Under the pieces are notes generated by a model. The model ran no database searches and had not been told where the DNA came from. It saw only the letters and a list, made by a program, of their open reading frames with translations. Positions 28,869 to 64,000 of a stretch of 64,000 nucleotides of DNA are shown here, in pieces (positions within the stretch are counted from its first letter, which is position 1; each line of letters starts with the position of its first letter). The stretch is taken from positions 62,001 to 126,000 of the forward strand of contig NZ_JABJXT010000002.1 of the NCBI RefSeq assembly GCF_013155295.1. The letters are read 5' to 3'. Position numbers and translations under genes: made by a program. The stretch is from Pseudogemmobacter hezensis. Lineage in GTDB: Bacteria > Pseudomonadota > Alphaproteobacteria > Rhodobacterales > Rhodobacteraceae.

Positions 28869-29633
28869 TCAGCCGTAGATCGCCTGCCAGATCAGCCGCA
28901 GCGCCATCGCGGTTGAGGTGATCACCAGGATCGGGCGGATCAGCCCGGCCCCGATACGCATCGCCAGTTTTGCCCCCAGCCAGGCCCCCAGCGTCTGGGT
29001 CAGCGCCATGGCAAAGCCCACCATCCAAAGCACGCTGCCCGTGGGGATGAACACGGCAAGCGAGCCCAGATTGGACGCGAAGTTCAGCATCTTCGTATGG
29101 GCGGTGGCCTTCAGGATGCCGTAGCCCGCCAGCAGCACGAACCCCATCATGAAAAAGCTGCCGGTCCCCGGACCGAAAAAGCCGTCATAGGCGGCAACCA
29201 GCGGCACCACCGTCAGCGCGAAAACCGCAGGCTTCATCCGCTGAACGCGGTCATTGTCGCTGAGCCCCTTGCGAAAGGCGAAAAAGGCGGCAACCGCGAT
29301 CAGCACCACGGGCATGATGATCCGCAACAGCTCGGCCGACAGAAGATGCGCAATCATCGCCCCCGCGCCCGCTGCCAGCGCCGAAATCGCCGCCATCGGC
29401 AGCTGGGCTGCGGGGTTTACATGCCCGGCCCGCGCATAGGTCAGCGCCGCCGTGCCGGACCCAAAGCTGCCCTGCAGTTTGTTCGTGGCCAGGGCCTCAA
29501 CCGGGGGCAGCCCCGCCAGCAGCAGCGCAGGCACGGTGATCAGCCCGCCGCCCCCCGCAATCGAGTCTATAAAGCCGCCGATGAAGGCCGCCAGCATCAG
29601 CAGCAGCACAATATCCATGGCCAGACCGAACAT
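28869..29633 (-). CDS. TSUP-family (TauE/SafE) membrane transporter
   Basis: A 254-residue protein of about eight helices. Features are the N-terminal FIGGFIDSIAGGGGLITVPALLL signature and the internal-repeat signature YDGFFGPGTGSF. TSUP members export sulfite, sulfoacetate or related organosulfur anions, or import them; no specificity can be inferred. ATG 29633 starts one base after the GNAT stop, so it is the last gene of the serB-GNAT-TSUP unit. Confidence 0.87.
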   Translation of the reverse strand: MFGLAMDIVLLLMLAAFIGGFIDSIAGGGGLITVPALLLAGLPPVEALATNKLQGSFGSGTAALTYARAGHVNPAAQLPMAAISALAAGAGAMIAHLLSAELLRIIMPVVLIAVAAFFAFRKGLSDNDRVQRMKPAVFALTVVPLVAAYDGFFGPGTGSFFMMGFVLLAGYGILKATAHTKMLNFASNLGSLAVFIPTGSVLWMVGFAMALTQTLGAWLGAKLAMRIGAGLIRPILVITSTAMALRLIWQAIYG

Positions 29634-29634
29634 C

Positions 29635-30126
29635 TCAGAGATCCAGCCTGCGATGCACCCGGCCCACGACCTGGCCATTGGCAAGCGCCCAGGCCGGATC
29701 ACTGTCATAATCAACAAAGCCGATCTTTGCATAATAGCCAAGGCCGGGACGGTTGTCGGCGCGAATGGTGGCGTTCAGCACGCGAATACCCGCCGCCTGC
29801 GCCGCTGCCCGCGTGGCGGCAAACAGCGCCTGTCCGGTGCCCCGCGCCTGCACATCTGCGGCGACGAAGGTGCCGATCTCGGCCCAGCCTGGCGGCAGCT
29901 TCGGGTTCAGCCCGACTGACTGAAAGCCGATCAGCTGGCCGTCCGCCTCGGCGATATGGCAGCAGACCCCGGCGTCCGAGCGGATGTAAGAGGCAATGAC
30001 CTGCGCCTCATCGCGGGGTTCCTCATAGGCGGTGGTGCCGCCGAGCGCGATGATGTGGTTTTGCAGCCGGGTCATCGCGCCCGCATCTGCCAGCCTCACC
30101 GGGCGAACAAGGACGGAGGCGCTCAT
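29635..30126 (-). CDS. GNAT-family N-acetyltransferase
   Basis: A 163-residue acetyltransferase with the GNAT fold. It has a V/IGFQSVG beta-4 strand, the acetyl-CoA loop QARGTGQALF near residue 94, and the C-terminal NRPGLGYYAKIGFVDY block. It is closest in appearance to phosphinothricin-acetyltransferase-like or amino-acid acetyltransferases. Its ATG overlaps the serB stop (ATGA). Substrate unknown; the serB context might point to an amino-acid-related substrate, but that is inference. Confidence 0.87.
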   Translation of the reverse strand: MSASVLVRPVRLADAGAMTRLQNHIIALGGTTAYEEPRDEAQVIASYIRSDAGVCCHIAEADGQLIGFQSVGLNPKLPPGWAEIGTFVAADVQARGTGQALFAATRAAAQAAGIRVLNATIRADNRPGLGYYAKIGFVDYDSDPAWALANGQVVGRVHRRLDL

Positions 30127-36790: not shown

Positions 36791-37570
36791 TCAGACTGCG
36801 CGTTCGACCATCAGATTCTTGATCTCTGCAATCGCCTTGGCCGGGTTCAGCCCTTTCGGGCAGGTCTTGGCGCAGTTCATGATCGTGTGGCAACGGTAAA
36901 GCTTGAATGGATCTTCCAGCCCATCAAGCCGCTCGCCGGTGATCTCATCGCGCGAATCGACGATCCAGCGATAGGCATGCAGCAGCGCGGCCGGGCCGAG
37001 ATATTTGTCCGAATTCCACCAATAGCTGGGGCAAGAGGTCGAGCAGGACGCGCACATCACGCATTCATAAAGCCCATCGAGCTTTTTGCGATCTTCGATC
37101 GACTGACGCCACTCTTTCGCCGGCGTGTTCGAGCGCGTCTCCAGCCAGGGCATGATCGAGGCGTGCTGTGCATAGAAATGCGTCAGATCGGGGATCAGAT
37201 CCTTGATAACCGACATATGCGGCAGCGGGTAGATTTTGACATCGCCCTTGATCTCATCGAGGCCATAGATACAGGCCAGATGGTTGCCGCCGTCGATATT
37301 CATCGCGCAGGAGCCGCAAATCCCTTCACGGCAGGAGCGGCGGAAGGTCAGCGTCGGATCAATCTCATTCTTGATCTTGATCAGCGCGTCCAGGACCATC
37401 GGGCCGCATTTGTCCATATCGAGATAATAGGTATCGACCCGCGGGTTTTCCCCGGTATCGGGATCCCAGCGATAGATACGGAAGGCGCGCGTGTTCTTCG
37501 CGCCCTCGGGTTTCGGCCAGGTTTTGCCGGTGCGTACCTTGGAGTTCTTCGGAAGTGAGAACTGGACCAT
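36791..37570 (-). CDS. sdhB: Succinate dehydrogenase iron-sulfur subunit
   Basis: A 259-residue subunit that carries electrons from the flavin to quinone in complex II. The 2Fe-2S ligands are in [13 protein letters not shown] and the following Cys of LACIYG. The 4Fe-4S and 3Fe-4S ligands are in [15 protein letters not shown] and [17 protein letters not shown]. It is the last gene of the operon and is separated from sdhA by four lipoprotein genes. The gap to the last of these is 3 bp. Confidence 0.98.
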
Positions 37571-37573
37571 GGG

Positions 37574-37882
37574 TCAGCCTTTCCAGTCGGATCTTTGATA
37601 AAGCGGGCGGCTCGGGGCCTGACCCGATTTCGCCATGACGCAGGTTTCGTAAACTGCTGACGGATCTTTGCGCAGCAGCCAGTCGGACGAGATGTTCAGC
37701 TCAAGATCGCCCCTTGTCCGCGTTCCATGCGGGCCAGAGACAATACCGATCCCGGCGGTTCCCGTGGGCGCGCGCGCCTGACGGGCGGGTTTCATACATT
37801 GCTCTTCGGCGACATGCACCGGAACCGGGCCGCAGGCGGCCAGAGCCAGCGCAAGTACTGCGAAGGGGGCAAGATACCGCAT
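37574..37882 (-). CDS. Small lipoprotein in the sdh operon (LppA1)
   Basis: A 102-residue predicted lipoprotein: signal MRYLAPFAVLALALAAC with lipobox LAAC (Cys 17). The mature part has Cys at EEQCMKP and YETCVMA, a likely disulfide pair. No family recognised. Its ATG overlaps the stop of the upstream lipoprotein (TGATG) and it ends 3 bp before sdhB, so its synthesis is tied to that of complex II subunits. Confidence 0.82.
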   Translation of the reverse strand: MRYLAPFAVLALALAACGPVPVHVAEEQCMKPARQARAPTGTAGIGIVSGPHGTRTRGDLELNISSDWLLRKDPSAVYETCVMAKSGQAPSRPLYQRSDWKG

Positions 37883-38196
37883 CAGCGCACCTGCGGGATG
37901 TTATGGGCGGCAAAGCAGCTCTGCGCCGCCGGGCGCAGCGCGATATTGCGGATATTCTCACGCGTCAGGCTGCCTGCCTCGACCCCGGTGTCACGCGCCA
38001 GCGCCCGGATCTCGGGCATTGAGGCCGCGTTCAGAATGCAATCGGTGGCCTGGCCTGCGGGCCCTGCTGGCATGTCACGCGATACGACCGGCATCACCAC
38101 GCCATGCGCGATATTGCGGGTGGTCTTATCCGCCAGCGCCTGCGGGTCGCACCCCGCCAGCGCCAGTGTCGCAAGGATCAGGGCCGGACGCAGCAT
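37882..38196 (-). CDS. Small lipoprotein in the sdh operon, paralogue A
   Basis: A 104-residue predicted lipoprotein with signal LRPALILATLALAGC (lipobox LAGC). The mature part contains KTTRNIAHGVV, ATDCILNAAS and RPAAQSCFAA. This pattern closely parallels the next upstream gene, so the two look like a tandem duplication. Start ATG 38196 overlaps the preceding stop (TGATG); the longer upstream frame is unsupported. Function unknown. Confidence 0.82.
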   Translation of the reverse strand: MLRPALILATLALAGCDPQALADKTTRNIAHGVVMPVVSRDMPAGPAGQATDCILNAASMPEIRALARDTGVEAGSLTRENIRNIALRPAAQSCFAAHNIPQVR

Positions 38197-38555
38197 CACA
38201 GCGACACCCCGCCGACCTTCAGCAGATCGGTCGTCGACAGCGATTGCACCAGGCATTGGGTGGCCTCGGGGCGGGTCGCAATCGTGCGCACCACCGGCCA
38301 GGCCTGGCCAGCGCCATTCGTTCCGGCCGAGGCATATTGTGCCAGCTGCACCAGCTCGCCCGTCTGCGCATTGTTGATCACGCAATCGGTATAGGGCGAG
38401 ACGTTCACGCCCGGCAGATATTGGTTCGCAGCCCCGTTCACCGCCGTGCGGGCCAGCGAGCGGGTGGTTTCCTGCATCACGCTTTCGCCCACGACACAGC
38501 CGGAAAGCGCCAGAGCGAGGATGCCAGGGCTCAGCTTAGTTGCCAGTGCAGGCAT
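38196..38555 (-). CDS. Small lipoprotein in the sdh operon, paralogue B
   Basis: A 119-residue predicted lipoprotein, lipobox LSGC at Cys 20. The mature part contains ETTRSLARTAV, YTDCVINNAQ and RPEATQCLVQ, matching paralogue A in the spacing of both Cys and the surrounding residues. It carries a ~9-residue insertion (GTNGAGQAW) in the middle. Its start lies 20 bp inside the end of the upstream gene. Confidence 0.82.
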   Translation of the reverse strand: MPALATKLSPGILALALSGCVVGESVMQETTRSLARTAVNGAANQYLPGVNVSPYTDCVINNAQTGELVQLAQYASAGTNGAGQAWPVVRTIATRPEATQCLVQSLSTTDLLKVGGVSL

Positions 38556-39006
38556 AGCCCGACCCTCCGCTCAAAGTGACGCTGCAGCTTGCACGGGGGG
38601 CTGGCGCGCGCGAAGGGGCCGCCGGGGCAGGTGCTGTCTGATAGGTCGGGGTTTGCGGCGCTGCGACTGCGCCGGTTGAGGGGCCACCCCTGGTGTCAAT
38701 GCGCGGCATTGATCCAGAGGCGGCGGTGCCTGCCGAGGGCGTGCTGTTCAGCGCCGAGATCGGCGCCCCCGCAGAGCCGCTGGCCGCCAGGCGGGCATTG
38801 GCACAGGCGTTCAGTGCGTCGGCCTCGGCCTGGGTTGCGCCAACACCGGGCATCAGCACACTGTCATTTTGTGACACATAGCTGCCCTTCGGTTTCAGCT
38901 GCAACATGCAGCTGGTCTGGGCCTGAGCCAGCGGGCTGGGCCCGCCGCAAGCGGATAGGCCAAACGCAGCCCCAGAAAACAAAAGAACAGCACTGGTTAC
39001 ACGCAT
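38536..39006 (-). CDS. Lipoprotein with Pro/Ala-rich linker in the sdh operon
   Basis: A 156-residue predicted lipoprotein with signal [20 protein letters not shown] (lipobox LSAC). A globular part has Cys at TSCMLQL and NACANAR. A long Ala/Pro/Thr/Ser linker follows, ending in ASCSVTLSGGSGYACTGN with two more Cys. The linker suggests a tethered tip domain reaching from a membrane anchor. Its ATG overlaps the sdhA TGA (TGATG). Confidence 0.8.
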   Translation of the reverse strand: MRVTSAVLLFSGAAFGLSACGGPSPLAQAQTSCMLQLKPKGSYVSQNDSVLMPGVGATQAEADALNACANARLAASGSAGAPISALNSTPSAGTAASGSMPRIDTRGGPSTGAVAAPQTPTYQTAPAPAAPSRAPAPRASCSVTLSGGSGYACTGN

Positions 39007-40811
39007 CAGAATTTTCTCTCTGCCGGAGCAATCTTTTTCAGACTGATTCCGCCATCGGCCTCTGCCGTCAGCGGGTCCAGATGGACCGGACGATAGGAGA
39101 GCGTAACTTTGTTTCCGTCAACATGCGCCAGGCTGTGCTTGCGCCAGTTCACGTCATCGCGGGTCGGGTGATCTTCATGCGCGTGGGCGCCACGGCTTTC
39201 GGTGCGGGCATGCGCCCCATAGATCGTCGCCAGCGCGTTCGGCATCAGGTTGGTCAGTTCCAGCGTTTCCATCAGGTCGCTGTTCCAGATCATCGAGCGG
39301 TCGGTGACCTTCAGATCGCCCATCTTGCCAGCGATTTCGGTCATGGCGACCTCACCCTCGGCCAGGGTCTTTTCCGTGCGGAAGACGGCGGCGTCGCGCT
39401 GCATGGTTTTCTGCATCTCAAGGCGCAGATCGGCGGTCGGGATCGCGCCCTTCGCGTGGCGCAGATCATCAAACCGCGCCATCGCCTTATCGACGCTGGC
39501 TTTGTTGGTGGGCGGCACCGGGGTTTTCGGATCAACCACCTGGCCTGCGCGGATCGCAGCCGCACGGCCAAAGACCACAAGGTCGATCAGCGAGTTCGAG
39601 CCGAGACGGTTCGCGCCATGGACCGAGGCACAGCCCGCCTCACCCACAGCCATCAGGCCGGGGAAGATCGCGTCGGGGTTCTCGGGCGTCGGGTTCAGCA
39701 CCTCACCCCAGTAGTTGGTCGGGATGCCGCCCATATTGTAGTGAACGGTCGGCAGAACCGGGATCGGCTCTTTGTTCAGATCGACACCGGCGAAGATCTT
39801 GGCGGATTCGGAAATGCCCGGCAGACGCTCATGCAGGGTGGCGGGCGGCAGGTGGTTCAGGTGCAGGAAGATGTGATCCTTTTCGGCACCGACGCCACGA
39901 CCCTCACGGATTTCCATCGTCATACAGCGCGAGACATAGTCGCGCGGCGCCAGGTCTTTGTAATGGGGCGCATAGCGCTCCATAAAGCGCTCGCCGTTCG
40001 AGTTGGTCAGATAGCCACCCTCGCCGCGCGCGCCCTCGGTGATCAGACAGCCCGAGCCATAGATCCCGGTCGGGTGGAACTGCACGAACTCCATATCCTG
40101 CAGCTGCAGGCCTGCGCGGGCAACCATGCCGCCGCCGTCGCCGGTGCAGGTATGGGCCGAGGTTGCCGAGAAATAGGCGCGACCGTAACCGCCGGTCGCC
40201 AGCACCACCATCTTGGCGTTGAAGACATGGATGGTGCCGTCATCAAGCTTCCAGCACACCACACCCGTGCAGCGGCCATCGGTGATGATCAGATCAAGTG
40301 CGAAATATTCGATATAGAATTCGGCCTGTTCTTTCAGCGAACGACCATAAAGCGTGTGCAGGATCGCGTGGCCGGTGCGGTCAGCGGCAGCACAGGTGCG
40401 CTGGACGGGCGGGCCTTCGCCGAATTCGGTCGTGTGACCGCCGAAGGGGCGCTGGTAGATCTTGCCCTCTTCGGTCCTGGAAAACGGCACGCCGTAATGT
40501 TCCAGCTCATAGACCGCTGCCGGGGCGGAGCGTGCGAGATATTCCATCGCATCGGTATCGCCCAGCCAGTCTGACCCTTTGACGGTGTCATACATATGCC
40601 ACTGCCAGTTGTCGGGGCCCATATTGGCCAGGGACGCCGCGATGCCACCCTGGGCCGCCACAGTATGCGAGCGGGTCGGGAAAACCTTGGTCACGCAGGC
40701 GGTGTGCAGCCCCTGCTCAGCCATGCCAAGCGTCGCCCGCAGCCCCGCGCCACCGGCGCCGACAACCACGACGTCATATTCATGCGTCTCGTATTGGTAT
40801 GCAGCCGTCAT
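39006..40811 (-). CDS. sdhA: Succinate dehydrogenase flavoprotein subunit
   Basis: The 601-residue catalytic subunit that oxidises succinate to fumarate. The FAD-binding dinucleotide fold is [15 protein letters not shown] near residue 14. The covalent-FAD His lies in the SHTVAAQGG block near residue 50. The active-site segments are HPTGIYGSG and THYNMGG-like VHYNMGG, and the Arg-bearing C-terminal helices include [16 protein letters not shown]. It lies 63 bp after sdhD. Confidence 0.98.
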
Positions 40812-40874
40812 TTCCGTCTTTCCTTACCGCATCTCTTGCAGGGCCACGCCGGGCGGCCGCCTGCAGGGCAAATC

Positions 40875-41246
40875 TTACAAAGCGATTTTGACCAGAGCGA
40901 ACAGCCCCGCCGCGATCAGCGCCCAGGCAAGGCCCGTCACCGCAACCAGCAAGAGCTTGCCCTTCACGCCATGAACATAGTCGATGATCGCCTCTTCGGC
41001 CTCTGCTTTGCAGTGCAGCGTCACCACGATCAGCGTCAGACCGCTGATGATCGCGGGCCAGGGGCGCGAGAAATACTCCAGCACGCCCTCATGGCTGCGG
41101 CCAAGGCCCAGACCAAAGGTGAAAACGAACAGCGGCACCAGCACAACCAGCAGCGCCGAGCTGATCATCATGCCCCAGTGGTGATGGGTGCCTGCACGGG
41201 CCGATCCCAGCCCCTCAGCACTTTTGCGATCGGTGATGAAACGCAT
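40875..41246 (-). CDS. sdhD: Succinate dehydrogenase membrane anchor subunit D
   Basis: A 123-residue protein with three membrane helices. The heme/quinone region reads TLHCKAEAEEAIIDYVHG, the usual H-x(10)-DYxH arrangement giving the heme b His and the quinone-site Tyr. With SdhC it anchors SdhAB to the inner membrane. Confidence 0.95.
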   Translation of the reverse strand: MRFITDRKSAEGLGSARAGTHHHWGMMISSALLVVLVPLFVFTFGLGLGRSHEGVLEYFSRPWPAIISGLTLIVVTLHCKAEAEEAIIDYVHGVKGKLLLVAVTGLAWALIAAGLFALVKIAL

Positions 41247-41257
41247 ATCCTGCCTCC

Positions 41258-41647
41258 TCAGACCACAAGCACGGTGATGATGGTCAGAATGGTCGCGCCG
41301 ATGAACATGGACCAGCCCATGATCTCATTGGCTTTGACCTCGATGAAATAGCCCAGATCCCAGATCACATGGCGCAGACGGCCAAGCGCGTGATACCAGA
41401 TCGCCCAGGCCGCCAGCGTCATCAGCACATCGCCGACGATGCTGGTCAGAATGCCGTTCACGCAGGCAAAAGCCGCAGGCGATGTCACCGCCGAGATCAG
41501 CCAGGCCACGATCAGAAACACCGTGCCAAGCGTTGCGATCCCGGTGATACGCACCATGATCGACGAGATCGAGGTCATTTGCGGCCGATAATACGGCCCG
41601 ATCATGAACGGAGAAAGAGGTCGCTCGACCCGTTTGGGTGCAGACAT
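41258..41647 (-). CDS. sdhC: Succinate dehydrogenase cytochrome b556 subunit C
   Basis: A 129-residue, three-helix subunit. It starts MSAPKRVERPLSP with the typical SISSIMVRITG quinone-site segment and YHALGRLRHVIWDLG carrying the heme-ligand His. ATG 41647 has AAGGGA upstream; the longer frame is not conserved-looking. It is the first gene of sdhC-D-A-(4 lipoproteins)-B. Confidence 0.96.
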   Translation of the reverse strand: MSAPKRVERPLSPFMIGPYYRPQMTSISSIMVRITGIATLGTVFLIVAWLISAVTSPAAFACVNGILTSIVGDVLMTLAAWAIWYHALGRLRHVIWDLGYFIEVKANEIMGWSMFIGATILTIITVLVV

Positions 41648-41996
41648 GGCTTGTCCCTTCGTCGCTGGCTTGCTCCATCCCGGATGCCTCCGGGAAATGG
41701 CGACACGATGGAGCGCGCTTCGATATGCCAATTCTCATAGCGCTTTTATCAGCCGAGTCACGGGGGGCAATGCCGCAATTGCAAACTGTTCCCGCTAACC
41801 AGGAAAGTTTTTGTACATTTTGTGATCACGATTTTGAATGCCGTGATCACACAGGTGATCACGGGCAATAACCAAGAGTTTTATTCAGAAATTCGCGCAT
41901 CTTATCTCCACAGCCACGCCGGCGGTTAACGGTGGCATTCGCAGCCGGCCCCCAAACCGCCGCTGATACGCCCAGGAACCGCCCGATTGCTCCGCA
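41648..41996. other. 349-bp intergenic region: sdh promoter region
   Basis: No ORF is supported. Going away from sdhC there is an AT-richer stretch (about 41730-41900) with three GTGATCAC palindromes at 41822-41862, then a more GC-rich part up to the divergent gene at 41997. The sdh promoter must lie here. Confidence 0.7.
41822..41862. promoter_or_regulatory. Triple GTGATCAC operator cluster upstream of sdhC
   Basis: Perfect 8-bp palindromes GTGATCAC at 41822-41829, 41843-41850 and 41855-41862. Centre spacings are 21 and 12 bp; the nearest copy is 175 bp from the sdhC ATG. The same 8-mer occurs three times upstream of sucC and, elsewhere in the window, I saw it only once more (inside a coding sequence). 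This points to a shared TCA-cycle regulator. Confidence 0.8.
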
Positions 41997-46495: not shown

Positions 46496-46609
46496 CGGCT
46501 GTTATCGCTAACCCCGGCTATACCTGTGCGGCAGGCGGCGAAAGCAGAAAGAATTTTCGGCATGCAATGGCATACCGCCCCTCAGAGCCGCTGGACAGAG
46601 ACGCGTTAA

Positions 46610-55398: not shown

Positions 55399-55455
55399 GG
55401 TTGCACCAATACGAATCGCGGCGTCATGCCCATGTTTCCTGATGGTTGCACCAAT
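55399..55455 (+). repeat. Direct repeat GGTTGCACCAAT (two copies)
   Basis: Identical 12-mers at 55399-55410 and 55444-55455, 45 bp apart (about four helical turns). The second directly abuts the first GTGATCAC. It may be a second activator site or promoter element. Confidence 0.55.
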
Positions 55456-55504
55456 GTGATCACGGGCGAAATTCTGTGATCACACTTTTTATTCTCGTGA
55501 TCAC
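55456..55504. promoter_or_regulatory. Triple GTGATCAC operator cluster upstream of sucC
   Basis: Perfect palindromes at 55456-55463, 55476-55483 and 55497-55504. Centres are 20 and 21 bp apart, so all lie on one DNA face; the nearest copy is 112 bp before the sucC ATG. The 8-mer is the same as upstream of sdhC. Confidence 0.82.
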
Positions 55505-55616: not shown

Positions 55617-56810
55617 ATGAACATCCATGAATATCAGGCCAAGGCGCTGCTTCGCTCTTATGGCATTCCGGTTTCCGATGGGCGCGTCGTGCTCAAAGCC
55701 GAGGACGCCAAGACCGCCGCAGGCGAGCTTGATGGCCCGCTCTGGGTGGTGAAGTCGCAGATCCATGCCGGCGGTCGCGGCAAGGGCAAATTCGTCGAGC
55801 CTGAGGCCGGCGAAAAAGGCGGCGTGCGCCTGGCGAAATCGGTCGAAGAGGCCGCTGAATTCGCCCGTCAGATGCTGGGCCGCACCCTTGTCACGATCCA
55901 GACCAGCCCGGCTGGCAAGCAGGTCAACCGCATCTATATCGAAGATGGTTCGGACATCGAGCGCGAGCTTTATCTTGCGCTGCTGATCGACCGTCAGACC
56001 AGCCGCATCTCGATCGTCGCCTCGACCGAGGGCGGCATGGATATCGAAGAGGTCGCGCATTCGACCCCGGAAAAAATCCACACCATCACCGTCGATCCGG
56101 CCACGGGCCTGCAGGATTTCCACGGCCGCCGCGTTGCTTTCTCGCTGGGGCTGAAAGGCGCGCAGGTCAAACAGGCCGTCGGCATCGTGAAGAACCTCTA
56201 TAAGCTCTTCATCGACAAAGACATGGACATGCTTGAGATCAACCCGCTGGTCGTGATGACCGACGGCAATCTGAAGCTGCTTGACGCGAAAATGGGCTTT
56301 GACGGCAATGCGATCTACCGCCACGCCGATATCGCCGCGCTGCGCGACGAGACCGAGGAAGACCCGAAAGAGCTGGAAGCCTCGAAGTTCGATCTGAACT
56401 ACATCGCGCTGGACGGTGAAATCGGCTGCATGGTGAACGGCGCAGGCCTTGCCATGGCGACCATGGACATCATCAAGCTTTACGGCGCAGAGCCTGCGAA
56501 CTTCCTCGATGTTGGCGGCGGCGCCACCAAAGAGAAAGTGACCGAAGCCTTCAAGATCATCACCTCGGATCCGAACGTCAAAGGCATCCTCGTGAATATC
56601 TTCGGCGGCATCATGCGCTGCGACATCATCGCCGAGGGCGTGATTGCAGCCGTGAAAGAAGTCGGCCTGAAGGTTCCGCTGGTGGTCCGGCTGGAAGGCA
56701 CCAACGTCGATCTGGGCAAAAAGATCATCAATGACAGCGGTCTGAACGTGATCGCCGCCGATGACCTCTCGGATGCGGCGAAAAAGATCGTCGCGGCCGT
56801 TAAGGGCTGA
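55617..56810 (+). CDS. sucC: Succinyl-CoA synthetase beta subunit (ADP-forming)
   Basis: With SucD, converts succinyl-CoA to succinate with ATP or GTP formation. The 397-residue protein starts [16 protein letters not shown], with an ATP-grasp domain ([24 protein letters not shown] metal site) and a C-terminal CoA-ligase domain ([23 protein letters not shown]). ATG 55617 is the family start. First gene of the suc operon. Confidence 0.98.
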
Positions 56811-56815
56811 CAGCC

Positions 56816-57346
56816 ATGGCTCTGCGCTCTCTCTCTGCCGTTCTGGCGCTGGTGCTGCTTGCAGCGCCCGTCAGTGCTGACGAGGCTGCGGGCGCAGAGC
56901 AGGCCTCTGCACGTCTGGCCACCGCCAGCGGCGAGGGTCTGCTGCAAGCGGCCTATGCGACCTGTCTTGAGCTGGGCAATAAGGCTGATGCCGCGACCGA
57001 GGCTTTCCGCAAGGCAGGCTGGTCGGTCGAGGGGGATGCCGAAACGGGCTTTTACGAAAGCGCGGGGCCGGAAGATCTTTTCGCGCTGACCTGGGCGGAT
57101 GGCGGTTTTTGCCTGATCCAGTCTGAAACCATCGGTTCTGCCCGTGCGGCAGAGCTGCTGGCCGGGGTGCTGGCAGAGGCAGGGCTAACGGCGGCACCAT
57201 CGGCCGCTGAGGCAGGGGGCGAATGCCCGACGCTTGCCCTGGCGCAGATCGGCGCGATGGTCGAAGTCACCTCTTCGGGCAATGATCCGGTCTGTGTCTC
57301 TTCCGACAATAGTGGCGTAAGTTTCACCTGGGCAACGGAAGAATGA
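56816..57346 (+). CDS. Small exported protein within the suc operon
   Basis: A 176-residue protein with a signal peptide ([19 protein letters not shown]). The mature part, ~155 residues, has four Cys ([27 protein letters not shown]), plausibly two disulfides. It begins 5 bp after sucC on the same strand, so it is cotranscribed. Periplasmic location inferred; family unknown. Confidence 0.78.
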
Positions 57347-57384
57347 CCGCGACCCGCACCCTGTTTCAAGTAAGGAAGCTATTC

Positions 57385-57651
57385 ATGCGCATTAAAGTGA
57401 CCCTGCCAGCCATTATGCTGCTTTCCGTTCTCGCTGCCTGCGGCGGTGGCTATGGTCCTGAGAATGACCCGGTCCGCGTCTGCCAGGAGCAGGCAGAAAT
57501 GGCCAAAGCGGGGCGTACCGATGGCCGCCCGATCACCATCACCTGCCCGACCGGCGCAGGACGTGCAGAGGTTCGCAACAGCTATAACGCGAATGCCGAC
57601 ATGTACCGCGCGGGCAATGCCGCGATGATCGCTGTCGGCACCGCGAAGTAA
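57385..57651 (+). CDS. Small lipoprotein within the suc operon
   Basis: An 88-residue predicted lipoprotein: signal [19 protein letters not shown] (lipobox LAAC) followed by GGGYG. The mature part has two Cys (RVCQEQ, ITCPTG) and an [14 protein letters not shown] segment. ATG 57385 has AAGGAAG upstream. It lies between sucC and sucD. Function unknown. Confidence 0.78.
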
Positions 57652-57749
57652 TCCCCGCCTCCTGCAGGCTGGGCGAGACAAAGAACATGCGGTGGCCCGG
57701 CCTGGCCCGGGTCTCCGTGAGGATAGATCTATTCTGCAAGGAGGCCCGG

Positions 57750-58634
57750 ATGGCCGTTCTGATCAATAAGCATACCAAGGTCATCTGTCAGGGCATCACC
57801 GGCTCGCAGGGGACATTCCACACCGAGCAGGCCATTGCCTATGGCACCCAGATGGTCGGCGGCGTGACGCCGGGCAAAGGTGGCAGCAGCCACCTCGGCC
57901 TGCCGGTCTTCGACTCGGTGCATGACGCGGTGGAAAAGACCGGCGCTGATGCGACCGTGATCTATGTGCCGCCGCCCTTCGCAGCCGACTCGATCCTTGA
58001 GGCGATCGACGCCGAGATCCCGCTGATCGTCGCGATCACCGAGGGTATCCCGGTTCTCGACATGATGAAGGTCAAGCGCGCGCTGATCAACTCGAAGTCG
58101 CGCCTGATCGGGCCGAACTGCCCCGGCGTCATGACGCCCTCGCAGTGCAAAATCGGCATCATGCCCGGCAATATCTTCTCGGTCGGCTCGGTGGGCGTTG
58201 TTTCGCGCTCGGGCACGCTTACCTATGAAGCGGTGAAGCAAACCACCGATGTCGGCCTTGGCCAGTCCTCGGCTGTCGGGATCGGTGGCGACCCGATCAA
58301 AGGGACCGAGCATCTTGACGTTTTGGAAATGTTCCTGGCAGACCCTGAGACGCATTCGATCATCATGATCGGCGAAATCGGCGGCTCTGCCGAAGAGGAG
58401 GCTGCGCAATTCCTGGCCGACGAGAAGAAGAAAGGCCGCTGGAAGCCGACCGCTGGCTTCATCGCGGGCCGCACTGCTCCTCCGGGCCGTCGTATGGGCC
58501 ATGCCGGTGCGATCGTCGCAGGCGGCAAGGGCGATGCGGAATCGAAGATCGAAGCCATGCTGAGCGCAGGCATCGTGGTGGCAGACAGCCCCGCGACCCT
58601 GGGCGAGGCTGTGCTGAAAGCAATCAAGGGCTGA
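57750..58634 (+). CDS. sucD: Succinyl-CoA synthetase alpha subunit
   Basis: The 294-residue subunit binds CoA and carries the phosphorylated His. Motifs: [18 protein letters not shown] (CoA/nucleotide fold), [19 protein letters not shown], and [10 protein letters not shown] with the active His. A strong AAGGAGG precedes ATG 57750. The 98-bp gap after the lipoprotein gene holds no terminator. Confidence 0.98.
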
Positions 58635-58636
58635 TC

Positions 58637-58888
58637 ATGCAACCGGCGCAAGCCATAGGGGCCCTGCGATACAGGTCCTGTCTTTCCCCGGTGCGGGCCC
58701 TCCGCGCCGTGGAAGCCCGGCTTCCGCCCGCTGCAGTCACACGCTCTGTCAGGATGGTCTGCGCCGCAGATCCCTGCCTGCCGCAAAGCCCCGGCTTTGC
58801 GGCGCTTACGCATTTGGCCCTGGCTGCCCCGGCCCGCCAGGCTGCTCCCAACCGTTACGGTCCCAACCCTACCGAGGTCCAGTCATGA
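58637..58888 (+). CDS. Possible 83-residue ORF bridging sucD and sucA
   Basis: An open frame fills the sucD-sucA gap almost exactly: its ATG is 2 bp after the sucD stop and its TGA overlaps the sucA ATG (ATGA). It would encode an Arg/Ala/Pro-rich, Cys-containing protein with no recognised domain or good ribosome site. It may be a coupling leader rather than a functional protein, or chance in GC-rich DNA. Confidence 0.3.
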   Translation: MQPAQAIGALRYRSCLSPVRALRAVEARLPPAAVTRSVRMVCAADPCLPQSPGFAALTHLALAAPARQAAPNRYGPNPTEVQS

Positions 58889-61848
58889 CCGACCAGTCCC
58901 CCACCGCCGCTTTCAATGCCTCGTCCTTTCTTGACGGGGCCAATGCCGATTACGTCGACCAGCTTCAGGCGCGTTATGCGGCCGACCCCAATTCGGTCGA
59001 TGCCGCCTGGGCCGAGTTCTTCCGTGCGCTTGGCGACAGCGAGCAGGACGCGAAAAAGGCGGCCACTGGCCCGTCCTGGGCCCGCGCTGACTGGCCGCCG
59101 CAGCCGGTGGATGATCTGACCGCCGCGCTGACCGGCGAATGGCCGATGCCCCAGGCGAAAGAGGGCAAGGCCGCTGGCGCAAAGATCGCCGCCAAGGCCC
59201 AGGATCAGGGCGTCAACCTGACCGAGGCGCAGCTGCAACGCGCGGTGATCGATTCCATCCGGGCGCTGATGATCATCCGCGCCTATCGGATCCGCGGCCA
59301 CCTGGCGGCAGACCTCGACCCACTGAACATGCGCGATGAGCTGAACCACCCGGAACTGGACCCGGCCTCTTATGGCTTCACCGAGGCCGATCTGGATCGC
59401 CCGATCTTCCTTGATAACGTGCTGGGGCTGTCACATGCCTCGATGCGCCAGATCACCGACATTCTGAAGCGCACCTACTGCGGCACTTTCGCGCTGCAAT
59501 ACATGCATATCTCGAACCCCGAGGAATCCGCCTGGCTGAAAGAGCGGATTGAGGGCTACGGCAAAGAGATCGCCTTCACCCGCGAGGGCCGCCGCGCCAT
59601 CCTGAAAAAGCTGGTCGAGGCAGAGGGTTACGAGAAATTCCTCCATGTGAAATACATGGGCACCAAGCGCTTCGGCCTGGACGGCGGCGAGGCGCTGATC
59701 CCCGCGATGGAGCAGATCATCAAGCGCGGCGGCCAGCTGGGCGTGAAGGATATCGTGGTCGGCATGCCGCACCGTGGCCGCCTGAACATCCTGGCGAACG
59801 TGATGGGCAAGCCCTACCGCGCGATCTTCAACGAGTTCCAGGGCGGCAGCTTCAAGCCCGAGGATGTCGATGGCTCGGGCGATGTGAAATATCACCTCGG
59901 CGCGTCTTCGGATCGCACCTTTGACGGCAATACCGTTCACCTGTCGCTGACCGCGAACCCCTCGCACCTTGAGGCGGTGAACCCGGTCGTGCTGGGCAAG
60001 GTTCGCGCCAAGCAGGACCAGCTGAACGATACCGCAGAGCGGGTGGCCGTGCTGCCGATTCTTCTGCATGGTGACGCGGCTTTCGCGGGCCAGGGCGTTG
60101 TCGCCGAATGTCTGCAGCTTTCGGGCATTCGCGGCCATCGCACCGGCGGCTGTATCCATATCATCGTGAACAACCAGATCGGCTTTACCACCGCGCCGCA
60201 TTTCTCGCGCACCTCGCCCTACCCGACCGATATCGCGCTGATGGTCGAGGCGCCGATCTTCCACGTCAACGGTGACGACCCCGAGGCCGTGGTCCACGCC
60301 GCCCGCATCGCCACCGAATTCCGCCAGAAGTTCCACAAAGACGTGGTTCTGGACATCTTCTGCTATCGCCGCTTTGGTCACAACGAAGGCGACGAGCCGA
60401 TGTTCACCAACCCGGCGATGTATAAAAACATCCGCAAACAAAAGACCACGCTGCAGCTTTATACCGAGCGGCTGGTGAAAGACGGCCTCATCCCCGAGGG
60501 TGAGATCGAGGATATGAAAGCCGCCTTCCAGGCCCATCTGAATGAGGAATTCGAGGCCGGTAAGGAATATAAGCCCAATAAGGCCGACTGGCTGGACGGG
60601 CGCTGGAAATCCATGAGCCGCCCCGGCGCTGACAATTACCAGCGTGGCGAAACCTGGATCAAACCAGAGACCTTCCAGGAAATCGGCACCGCGCTGACCC
60701 GCCTGCCCGAGGGCTTTGACGCGCATAAAACCGTCTCGCGCCTGCTGGAAGCCAAGAAGAAGATGTTTGAGACCGGCGAGGGCTTTGACTGGGCCACCGC
60801 CGAGGCCCTGGCCTTCGGATCGTTGCAGGTCGAAGGCTTCCCGGTTCGCCTTTCGGGCCAGGACTGCACCCGTGGCACCTTCAGCCAGCGTCACTCCGGC
60901 ATCGTCGACCAGACGACCGAGGAACGCTACTATCCGCTGAACCACATCCGCGCCGGTCAGGCCCGCTATGAGGTCATCGACTCGATGCTCTCGGAATATG
61001 CGGTGCTCGGGTTCGAATATGGCTACTCGCTGTCCGAGCCCAATGCCCTGACGCTCTGGGAAGCGCAGTTCGGCGATTTCGCCAATGGTGCGCAGATCAT
61101 GTTCGATCAGTTCATCAACTCGGGCGAAAGCAAATGGCTGCGGATGTCGGGCCTTGTGGTTCTCTTGCCGCATGGCTTTGAGGGTCAGGGCCCCGAGCAC
61201 AGCTCGGCCCGGCTTGAGCGGTTCCTGCAAAACTCGGCTGAAGAAAACTGGATCGTCGCAAACTGCACCACGCCTGCGAACTACTTCCACATCCTGCGTC
61301 GCCAGCTGCATCGTGACTTCCGCAAGCCGCTGATCCTGATGACGCCGAAATCGCTGCTGCGTCACCCCATGGCGATCTCGAAGGCTGAGGATTTTACCGA
61401 CGGTTCCACCTTCCACCGCGTCCTCTGGGATGATGCGCAAAAGGGCAACTCGACGCTGAAGCTGAAATCCGACGACAAGATCCGCCGCGTGGTGATCTCT
61501 TCGGGCAAGGTCTATTATGACCTGCTGGCCGAGCGTGACGCCCGTGGCCAGGACGATGTCTATCTGCTGCGGCTGGAACAGATCTATCCGGTCCCGACCG
61601 TCGCCCTGCAGATCGAGCTGGCCCGTTTCGCCAATGCCGAATTCGTCTGGTGCCAGGAAGAGCCGAAGAACCAGGGCGCCTGGTCCTTCATCGAGCCGGA
61701 ACTCGAGCAGCTTCTGACCCGCGTGCGCGGCACGACCACCCGCCCGGTTTACGCGGGCCGTGTGGCTTCGGCCTCGCCTGCAACGGGCCTGGCCTCGCGC
61801 CACAAGGCCGAGCAGGCCGCGCTGATCGCCGCCGCTCTGGCTGAATGA
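58885..61848 (+). CDS. sucA: 2-oxoglutarate dehydrogenase E1 component
   Basis: Decarboxylates 2-oxoglutarate on thiamine diphosphate and passes the succinyl group to SucB. It is 987 residues, full length. The N-terminus has the FLDGANADYVDQLQ pattern. GMPHRGRLN, the HGDAAFAGQG thiamine-binding Asp, and GCIHIIVNNQIGFTT are present, and the transketolase-like half runs to RHKAEQ near the end. The adjacent sucB and lpdA complete the complex. Confidence 0.98.
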   Translation: MTDQSPTAAFNASSFLDGANADYVDQLQARYAADPNSVDAAWAEFFRALGDSEQDAKKAATGPSWARADWPPQPVDDLTAALTGEWPMPQAKEGKAAGAKIAAKAQDQGVNLTEAQLQRAVIDSIRALMIIRAYRIRGHLAADLDPLNMRDELNHPELDPASYGFTEADLDRPIFLDNVLGLSHASMRQITDILKRTYCGTFALQYMHISNPEESAWLKERIEGYGKEIAFTREGRRAILKKLVEAEGYEKFLHVKYMGTKRFGLDGGEALIPAMEQIIKRGGQLGVKDIVVGMPHRGRLNILANVMGKPYRAIFNEFQGGSFKPEDVDGSGDVKYHLGASSDRTFDGNTVHLSLTANPSHLEAVNPVVLGKVRAKQDQLNDTAERVAVLPILLHGDAAFAGQGVVAECLQLSGIRGHRTGGCIHIIVNNQIGFTTAPHFSRTSPYPTDIALMVEAPIFHVNGDDPEAVVHAARIATEFRQKFHKDVVLDIFCYRRFGHNEGDEPMFTNPAMYKNIRKQKTTLQLYTERLVKDGLIPEGEIEDMKAAFQAHLNEEFEAGKEYKPNKADWLDGRWKSMSRPGADNYQRGETWIKPETFQEIGTALTRLPEGFDAHKTVSRLLEAKKKMFETGEGFDWATAEALAFGSLQVEGFPVRLSGQDCTRGTFSQRHSGIVDQTTEERYYPLNHIRAGQARYEVIDSMLSEYAVLGFEYGYSLSEPNALTLWEAQFGDFANGAQIMFDQFINSGESKWLRMSGLVVLLPHGFEGQGPEHSSARLERFLQNSAEENWIVANCTTPANYFHILRRQLHRDFRKPLILMTPKSLLRHPMAISKAEDFTDGSTFHRVLWDDAQKGNSTLKLKSDDKIRRVVISSGKVYYDLLAERDARGQDDVYLLRLEQIYPVPTVALQIELARFANAEFVWCQEEPKNQGAWSFIEPELEQLLTRVRGTTTRPVYAGRVASASPATGLASRHKAEQAALIAAALAE

Positions 61849-61933
61849 CATTTGCGCCCCGTGCACAGGATCGCACGGGGTCCAACCACAATCTGACTGA
61901 TGCCCGCCAGACAGGGGCTAAGGAGTAGAGAAT

Positions 61934-63157
61934 ATGACTGACGTTATGGTCCCCGCACTCGGCGAATCGGTATCCGAGGCAACCGTTTCCACCTGGTTCA
62001 AAAAGGTGGGCGACACCGTCGCGCAGGACGAAATGCTGTGCGAGCTGGAAACCGACAAGGTTTCGGTTGAGGTCCCCTCGCCTGTCGCAGGCGTGCTGGC
62101 CGAGATCATCGCCCAGGAAGGCGAAACCGTCGCGGCCAACGCCCGCCTCGCCATCGTCTCCGAAGGCGCCACCGGGGCCGCCCCCGCAGCGCCCGCCGCC
62201 AAAGCTGCGGCCCCTGCCGCCCCGGCTGCCGCCGCACCTGCCGGCAAAGATGTCGAGGATGCCCCTTCTGCGAAGAAAGCCATGGCAGAGGCCGGGCTGT
62301 CGCGCGATCAGGTCCAGGCCTCGGGCAAAGACGGCCGCGTGATGAAGGAAGACGTGGCCCGCGCCGTGGCCGGGGCGCCGGGTGCCGCAGCCGCCGCAGT
62401 TGCCCCTGCCCCCGCACCGGCTGCGATCCCGCGCGCACCTGTGCCCGCCGATGACGCCGCCCGCGAAGAGCGCGTCAAGATGACCCGCCTGCGCCAGACC
62501 ATCGCGCGCCGCCTGAAAGACGCCCAGAACACCGCCGCCATGCTGACCACCTATAATGAGGTGGACATGTCGGGGATCATGCAGCTGCGCAACGAATACA
62601 AAGACCAGTTCGAGAAGAAGCACGGCGTCAAACTCGGCTTCATGTCCTTCTTCGTAAAGGCCTGCTGTCACGCGCTGAAAGAAGTGCCCGAGGTGAATGC
62701 CGAGATCGACGGCACCGATGTTGTCTATAAAAACTACGTCCATATGGGTGTGGCGGTTGGCACGCCTTCGGGGCTGGTGGTTCCGGTGGTGCGCGATGCG
62801 GATCAGATGGGCTTTGCCGCGATCGAGAAAAAGATCGCAGAACTGGGCCTGCGCGCTCGCGACGGCAAGCTGACCATGGCAGAGATGGCAGGCGGCTCGT
62901 TCACCATCTCGAACGGCGGCGTCTACGGCTCGCTGATGTCCTCACCGATCCTGAACCCGCCGCAATCGGGGATCCTTGGCATGCATAAGATCCAGGACCG
63001 CCCGGTCGTGGTCGGCGGCCAGATCGTGATCCGCCCGATGATGTATCTGGCGCTCTCCTACGACCACCGCATCGTCGATGGCAAAGGCGCCGTGACCTTC
63101 CTCGTGCGCGTCAAAGAGGCGCTGGAAGACCCCCGCCGCCTGCTGATGGATCTCTGA
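61934..63157 (+). CDS. sucB: 2-oxoglutarate dehydrogenase E2 (dihydrolipoyl succinyltransferase)
   Basis: A 407-residue E2 with one lipoyl domain (residues 1-77; lipoyl-Lys in [10 protein letters not shown]), an Ala/Pro linker, and a peripheral-subunit-binding domain near 110-145 ([16 protein letters not shown]). The linker continues to the catalytic domain from about 175 to the end, with [11 protein letters not shown] holding the active His-Asp. Standard architecture. Confidence 0.98.

Positions 63158-63294: not shown

Positions 63295-64000
<706 letters not shown>

Follow-up and report, generated by a model that had tools for sequence, protein, structure and literature searches.

Three copies of the palindrome GTGATCAC stand upstream of sdhC in Pseudogemmobacter hezensis, and they raise the question of which protein reads them and whether succinate dehydrogenase shares them with other enzymes of the TCA cycle. 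The window, which is the whole stretch of DNA that was analysed (64,000 nucleotides, C12:62001-126000), had first been described from its letters by a sequence-only reading that placed these copies at 41822, 41843 and 41855, and all three are found there as exact matches.

Palindrome arrays at the sdh and suc loci

The first array and the genes behind it consist of the following features.

41822..41829, sdh box 1 (sdhC-proximal), an exact GTGATCAC and putative AkgR operator, which forms a conserved 21-bp pair with box 2
41843..41850, sdh box 2, an exact GTGATCAC, 21 bp from box 1
41855..41862, sdh box 3 (distal), an exact GTGATCAC, 12 bp from box 2
41757..41762, minus strand, GTGACT, putative -35 element of the sdh promoter, 60 bp downstream of box 1
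36791..41647, minus strand, sdhC-sdhD-sdhA-sdhB, with sdhA and sdhB assigned by Pfam, and sdhC and sdhD by position only

The start of sdhC at 41647 was read from the sequence and leaves 174 bp to the nearest box; a Pfam search of the tested sdhC frame gave no match. In the sdh promoters of 31 relatives, GTGAC[AT] occurs 23 times at a distance of 57-60 bp on the downstream side of the proximal box, and this recurrent GTGACA/T is likely the -35 element of the sdh promoter, where a standard sigma-70 promoter scan gave no match. Among the 12 species of the genus besides P. hezensis, three (G484, G487 and G494) have the arrangement of boxes at 12 bp and 21 bp again, in a comparison of the boxes by themselves.

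Between the end of the second array and sucC lie 112 bp.

55456..55463, suc box 1 (distal), an exact GTGATCAC
55476..55483, suc box 2, an exact GTGATCAC, 20 bp from box 1, which lies in the only full TGTGATCACA of the window
55497..55504, suc box 3 (sucC-proximal), an exact GTGATCAC, 21 bp from box 2
55617..63157, plus strand, sucC-sucD-sucA-sucB, with sucC, sucD and sucA assigned by Pfam
61934-63157, plus strand, sucB, assigned by matches with the suc clusters of relatives and by position

Just upstream of the suc boxes, in 55401-55455, GGTTGCACCAAT is seen by eye twice, and its second copy enters the first box. Genes for a mesaconyl-CoA hydratase-like protein, an HpcH/HpaI-like protein and mdh lie between the two arrays; the first two are presumably mch and mcl, named as in Rhodobacter sphaeroides.

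Copies of the palindrome in the window and in the genome

The window contains eight copies of GTGATCAC, against a chance expectation of 0.81 per window, and this number was reached in none of 100 shuffles. Six copies are intergenic, in the two clusters, and two lie within reading frames. An earlier count of seven was right for the six clustered intergenic copies, but had only one coding copy where two are seen.

28918, GTGATCAC within a minus-strand open reading frame (28869-29741)
63410, GTGATCAC within a plus-strand open reading frame (63295-63693)

When the 256 palindromic 8-mers were compared, GTGATCAC was the sole one that clusters in the window, a cluster being taken as two copies at a distance of 8-40 bp or three in 60 bp.

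As a single site the 8-mer is common, with 187 copies in the genome of P. hezensis (4.60 Mb in 64 contigs). Neighbouring pairs, defined as GTGATCAC N2-32 GTGATCAC, number four in this genome, and all are inside the sdh and suc clusters, while 187 sites placed uniformly give a mean of 0.23 such pairs and at least four in one of 20,000 trials. The pattern TGTGATCAC has 32 matches with both strands counted, two of them on C64 and 30 with loci assigned and inspected: of these 30, six are the arrays and three are the opposite strand of a site already counted, which leaves 21 other loci. By a rough call, 19 of these 21 loci are within open reading frames and two (L300 and L328) are uncertain, and none of the 21 is a third clear promoter with TGTGATCAC. 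A genome scan for GTGATCAC had been proposed as the check that would speak against a regulatory role if the palindrome proved common and not enriched upstream of genes. Common it is, but its clusters are confined to two promoters and are conserved in relatives, as described below.

Conservation of paired boxes among relatives

At least one pair is present in 133 of the 149 genera of the family, each represented by one genome, and exactly two pairs are present in 92 of the 149 genomes by a hand count, while a reversed control pattern has no match in any of them. Pairs are found in all 13 species of the own genus, in which the third boxes vary. Across the class, a pair at 20 or 21 bp is present in five of five genomes of the family and in two of 332 outside it; in this class-wide set the reversed control matches one genome (G222).

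The places of 75 listed pairs were fetched, from 36 of the 133 pair-bearing genomes. Among these 75, 34 precede sucC, 31 precede sdh (that is, stand before sdhC, or before sdhA within 1.4 kb), one, in G136, lies on the suc side, and nine are elsewhere. Altogether 65 of the 75 listed pairs stand at sucC or sdh, and the sites are conserved in relatives. Of these 65 pairs, 61 are spaced by 21 bp and four by 20 bp, and the 34 sucC promoters of relatives all have a 20- or 21-bp pair among those listed. Counted per genome, the listed pairs precede both sucC and sdh in 30 of 36, one of the two in five of 36, and the suc side in G136.

Five of the nine pairs found elsewhere, with spacings of 18, 24 or 27 bp, look like coding coincidences. 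L255 is probably an sdh pair, because it is cut by a contig end beside mch. L242 and L291 (31 bp) and L243 (21 bp), in G042 and G136, are GTGATCAC pairs away from sdh and suc that are apparently intergenic, and the 31-bp spacing of L242 and L291 is close to three helix turns; these three pairs are possible extra targets of AkgR.

The idea that the palindromes arose by chance, or serve another function of GATC-containing palindromes, for example in methylation, and regulate no genes, draws on the 187 copies in the genome and on the coding location of most other TGTGATCAC loci. It is very improbable, since the pairs of the own genome occur at two promoters only, sucC and sdh are both marked in 30 of the 36 genomes with listed pairs, all 65 sdh and suc places keep a spacing of 20-21 bp, and the reversed control is absent from the 149 genomes.

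AkgR as the probable reader of the palindrome

Two regulators of R. sphaeroides are relevant here, RSP_0981, which we take to be AkgR, and RSP_1663, which we take to be CceR. The former belongs to the GntR family and the latter to the LacI family (PMC4344238, cited here, like PMC6365646 and PMC11323563, from partial text). The sequence-only reading had joined CceR and AkgR as one LacI-type protein, which holds for CceR but not for AkgR. It had also left the regulator of the palindrome unassigned; the site is not unassigned, because the sites bound by the R. sphaeroides transcriptional activator AkgR are reported to include GTGATCAC (PMC6365646), and sdh, sucCD and sucAB-lpd are predicted targets of RSP_0981 in that species (PMC4344238). 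The boxes described here have the palindrome reported for AkgR and lie upstream of sdh and suc. Among the papers listed by literature searches on GTGATCAC or TGTGATCAC with succinate dehydrogenase, sdhC or GntR, PMC6365646 was the only relevant one, and none was among those listed for GntR regulons, the TCA cycle and sdhC in Rhodobacteraceae.

The AkgR regulon of R. sphaeroides is thus alike in its palindrome, its GntR regulator and its predicted targets, and differs in that the candidate gene of P. hezensis is remote from sdh and suc, on a different contig; the tandem arrays at 20-21 bp are described here from sequence. PS417_07240 of the deoxyribonate cluster of Pseudomonas simiae, which is GntR-like and has 32% identity to AkgR, shares GTGATCAC but has other targets, with one GTGATCAC at -47 to -40 relative to the start codon of its own gene; the available part of its description mentions no tandem array (PMC6365646). 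Among solved structures, the best sequence match of the AkgR alignment is McbR (PDB 4p9f, E 4.5e-23), a distant relative that indicates the fold class only.

A CRP/FNR-type protein binding the palindromes in place of a GntR protein has in its favour the half sites TGTGA and TCACA, which resemble those of CRP. A CRP site is TGTGA-N6-TCACA, with six bases between the half sites, whereas the half sites abut in TGTGATCACA and in all boxes. CceR has been considered for the same role, since sdh is one of its predicted targets in R. sphaeroides (PMC4344238), but its printed motif differs from GTGATCAC, a CceR-like site stands apart from the boxes at 41788-41799, and the protein named in print for GTGATCAC is AkgR (PMC6365646). 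Binding by either of these two proteins is accordingly a slim prospect beside AkgR.

CceR-like sites in the window

The window also has sites that resemble those of CceR.

41788..41799, plus strand, GTTCCCGCTAAC, a weak CceR-like site between the boxes and sdhC, with one mismatch to GTTANCGNTAAC
46501-46512, an exact GTTATCGCTAAC, CceR-like, about 140 bp upstream of mdh (46652)

GTTANCGNTAAC is a CceR-like consensus, and a scan for it with at most one mismatch gave three matches in the window against 0.24 expected. The motif of CceR in print is [AGT]GTT N6-8 AAC[ACT] (PMC4344238), which GTGATCAC does not fit; this degenerate motif fits 41787-41800, but is a loose pattern with 13 matches in the window. 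CceR is predicted at both sdh and mdh in R. sphaeroides (PMC4344238), and the site upstream of sdhC suggests that sdh may be under dual control, with a second regulator besides AkgR. CceR thus resembles AkgR in its predicted action at sdh, and differs from it in its LacI family, its motif and the reported absence of sdh from its regulon in Paracoccus denitrificans, according to the partial text of PMC11323563. There, succinate dehydrogenase, 2-oxoglutarate dehydrogenase and fumarase of Paracoccus are placed outside the CceR regulon and other mechanisms are suggested for them.

Candidate gene for AkgR

The genome has 31 GntR matches, none of which is within C12:62001-126000, in agreement with the earlier remark that no regulator gene for the site is obvious in the window. 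The first candidate, L017, a GntR protein at C12:139398, 13 kb past the end of the window, was set aside by eye as PhnF-like. The protein retained is on contig 62.

G000:C62:52072-52734, minus strand, L026, candidate AkgR, 221 aa, with GntR and FCD domains

L026 matches PF00392 (GntR) and PF07729 (FCD), both above the cut-off, and none of the curated NCBIfam models passed on it. L026 is the likely AkgR of this genome and a candidate orthologue of RSP_0981; AkgR itself presumably has an FCD domain. The nearest relatives of L026 are L140 of Pseudogemmobacter bohemicus (97%) and L141 (96%), and no suc or sdh genes are within their loci, as at L026 in the own genome. The predicted structure of L140 (mean pLDDT 63, pTM 0.38) is too poor for use.

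Matches to L026 at E<=1e-50 are present in 133 of the 149 genera, with cut-offs for L026 and L023 set after the hits were seen and the best paralogue listed to L026 at 5e-49. Gene and pair occur together in 130 genera, the pair only in three (G019, G096 and G114), the gene without an exact pair in three (G040, G122 and G147), and neither in 13, so that 143 of 149 genera agree; the Fisher P of 1.8e-13 is inflated by kinship, as indicated by the GntR protein L023, which co-occurs with pairs too (P 1.2e-9). Genome completeness is 73-77% in G096, G122 and G147, and G040 and G114 are rated 100%. Class-wide, L026 is matched at E<=1e-50 in five of five genomes of the family and in none of 332 outside it, with up to eight candidates scored per genome.

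Gene neighbourhoods place L026 relatives near the pairs in part of the family. The small genomes G090 and G033 have a GntR gene 8.5 and 7.8 kb from the pair, whose best match among 23 GntR proteins of the own genome is L026 (64% and 48% identity). Of the 36 genomes with listed pairs, 15 have the L026 orthologue no more than 25 kb from a pair and 19 have it farther away or on another contig, while in two it was not found. Among the best 80 of 185 relatives of L026, suc genes are in the same locus in 48 of the 80 named loci, and two to four boxes precede sucC in each of the 11 named loci that extend 200 bp or more upstream of it. The gene order of G051 (L344) is sucC-mdh-mcl-mch-boxes-sdhA-sdhB-akgR, which fits the locus-tag order of R. 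sphaeroides in PMC4344238.

Another GntR/FCD protein might read the arrays, with the contig-62 protein being just a frequent neighbour. An example is L023 (G000:C3:124481-125113, 211 aa), whose orthologues are widespread (145 of 149 genera at E<=1e-15) and which, against the pairs, gives 125 genera with both, eight with the pair only, four with the gene only and 12 with neither. Its eight genera with pairs and no close L023 orthologue (G033, G058, G061, G068, G090, G115, G136 and G146) all have an L026 orthologue at E<=1e-50, and the gene near the pairs in G090, G033 and G136 is the orthologue of the contig-62 protein, not L023. L023, the second candidate, was dropped as the best one after these comparisons, and a protein other than L026 as the reader of the arrays is unlikely.

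Proposed mechanism and meaning for the family

The palindromes are very probably operators of AkgR, a GntR/FCD activator, and are arranged in tandem ahead of the sdhCDAB and sucCD-sucAB promoters. The proposal that sdh and suc are co-controlled through common sites gains from these results, as the boxes look like conserved operators shared by both. Each GTGATCAC would take one AkgR dimer, and the spacing of 20-21 bp corresponds to two helix turns, so two or three dimers would be on one face of the DNA and may bind cooperatively. AkgR dimers upstream of the putative -35 element would most likely aid each other's binding and RNA polymerase; because the boxes are well upstream of this element, activation would suit their position better than blocking. 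FCD domains often bind small carboxylates, and the dimers would give this aid when the FCD domain of AkgR senses a signal of TCA-cycle load. The third box at sdh, 12 bp away, may crowd its neighbour. What is observed here are the arrays, with their spacing and conservation, and the co-occurrence and frequent linkage of the pairs with one GntR/FCD protein; for L026, orthology to AkgR, binding to the boxes, activation from upstream, cooperative binding and the nature of the ligand are inferences.

The observation stands and is strongly conserved, and in outline AkgR already accounts for it. What is added here is a family-wide rule of arrays at 21 bp, the limitation of paired boxes to two operons in the own genome, and their pairing with one GntR gene. 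More tentatively, and with the odds slightly against it, the arrays might work throughout the family as a dedicated cooperative switch at no more than two promoters of each genome, by which a near-minimal AkgR regulon would set the flow from 2-oxoglutarate to fumarate, while extra third boxes, such as the one at 12 bp in sdh that may keep its neighbour from being occupied, would adjust the threshold in each species. By the rule, at least two GTGATCAC at 20-21 bp mark two TCA-cycle promoters in most sampled genera and tie them to one gene. AkgR arrays are a ready candidate for the control of TCA enzymes by means other than CceR, as suggested in Paracoccus in the available text of PMC11323563, and the control of succinate and 2-oxoglutarate oxidation becomes testable across the family.
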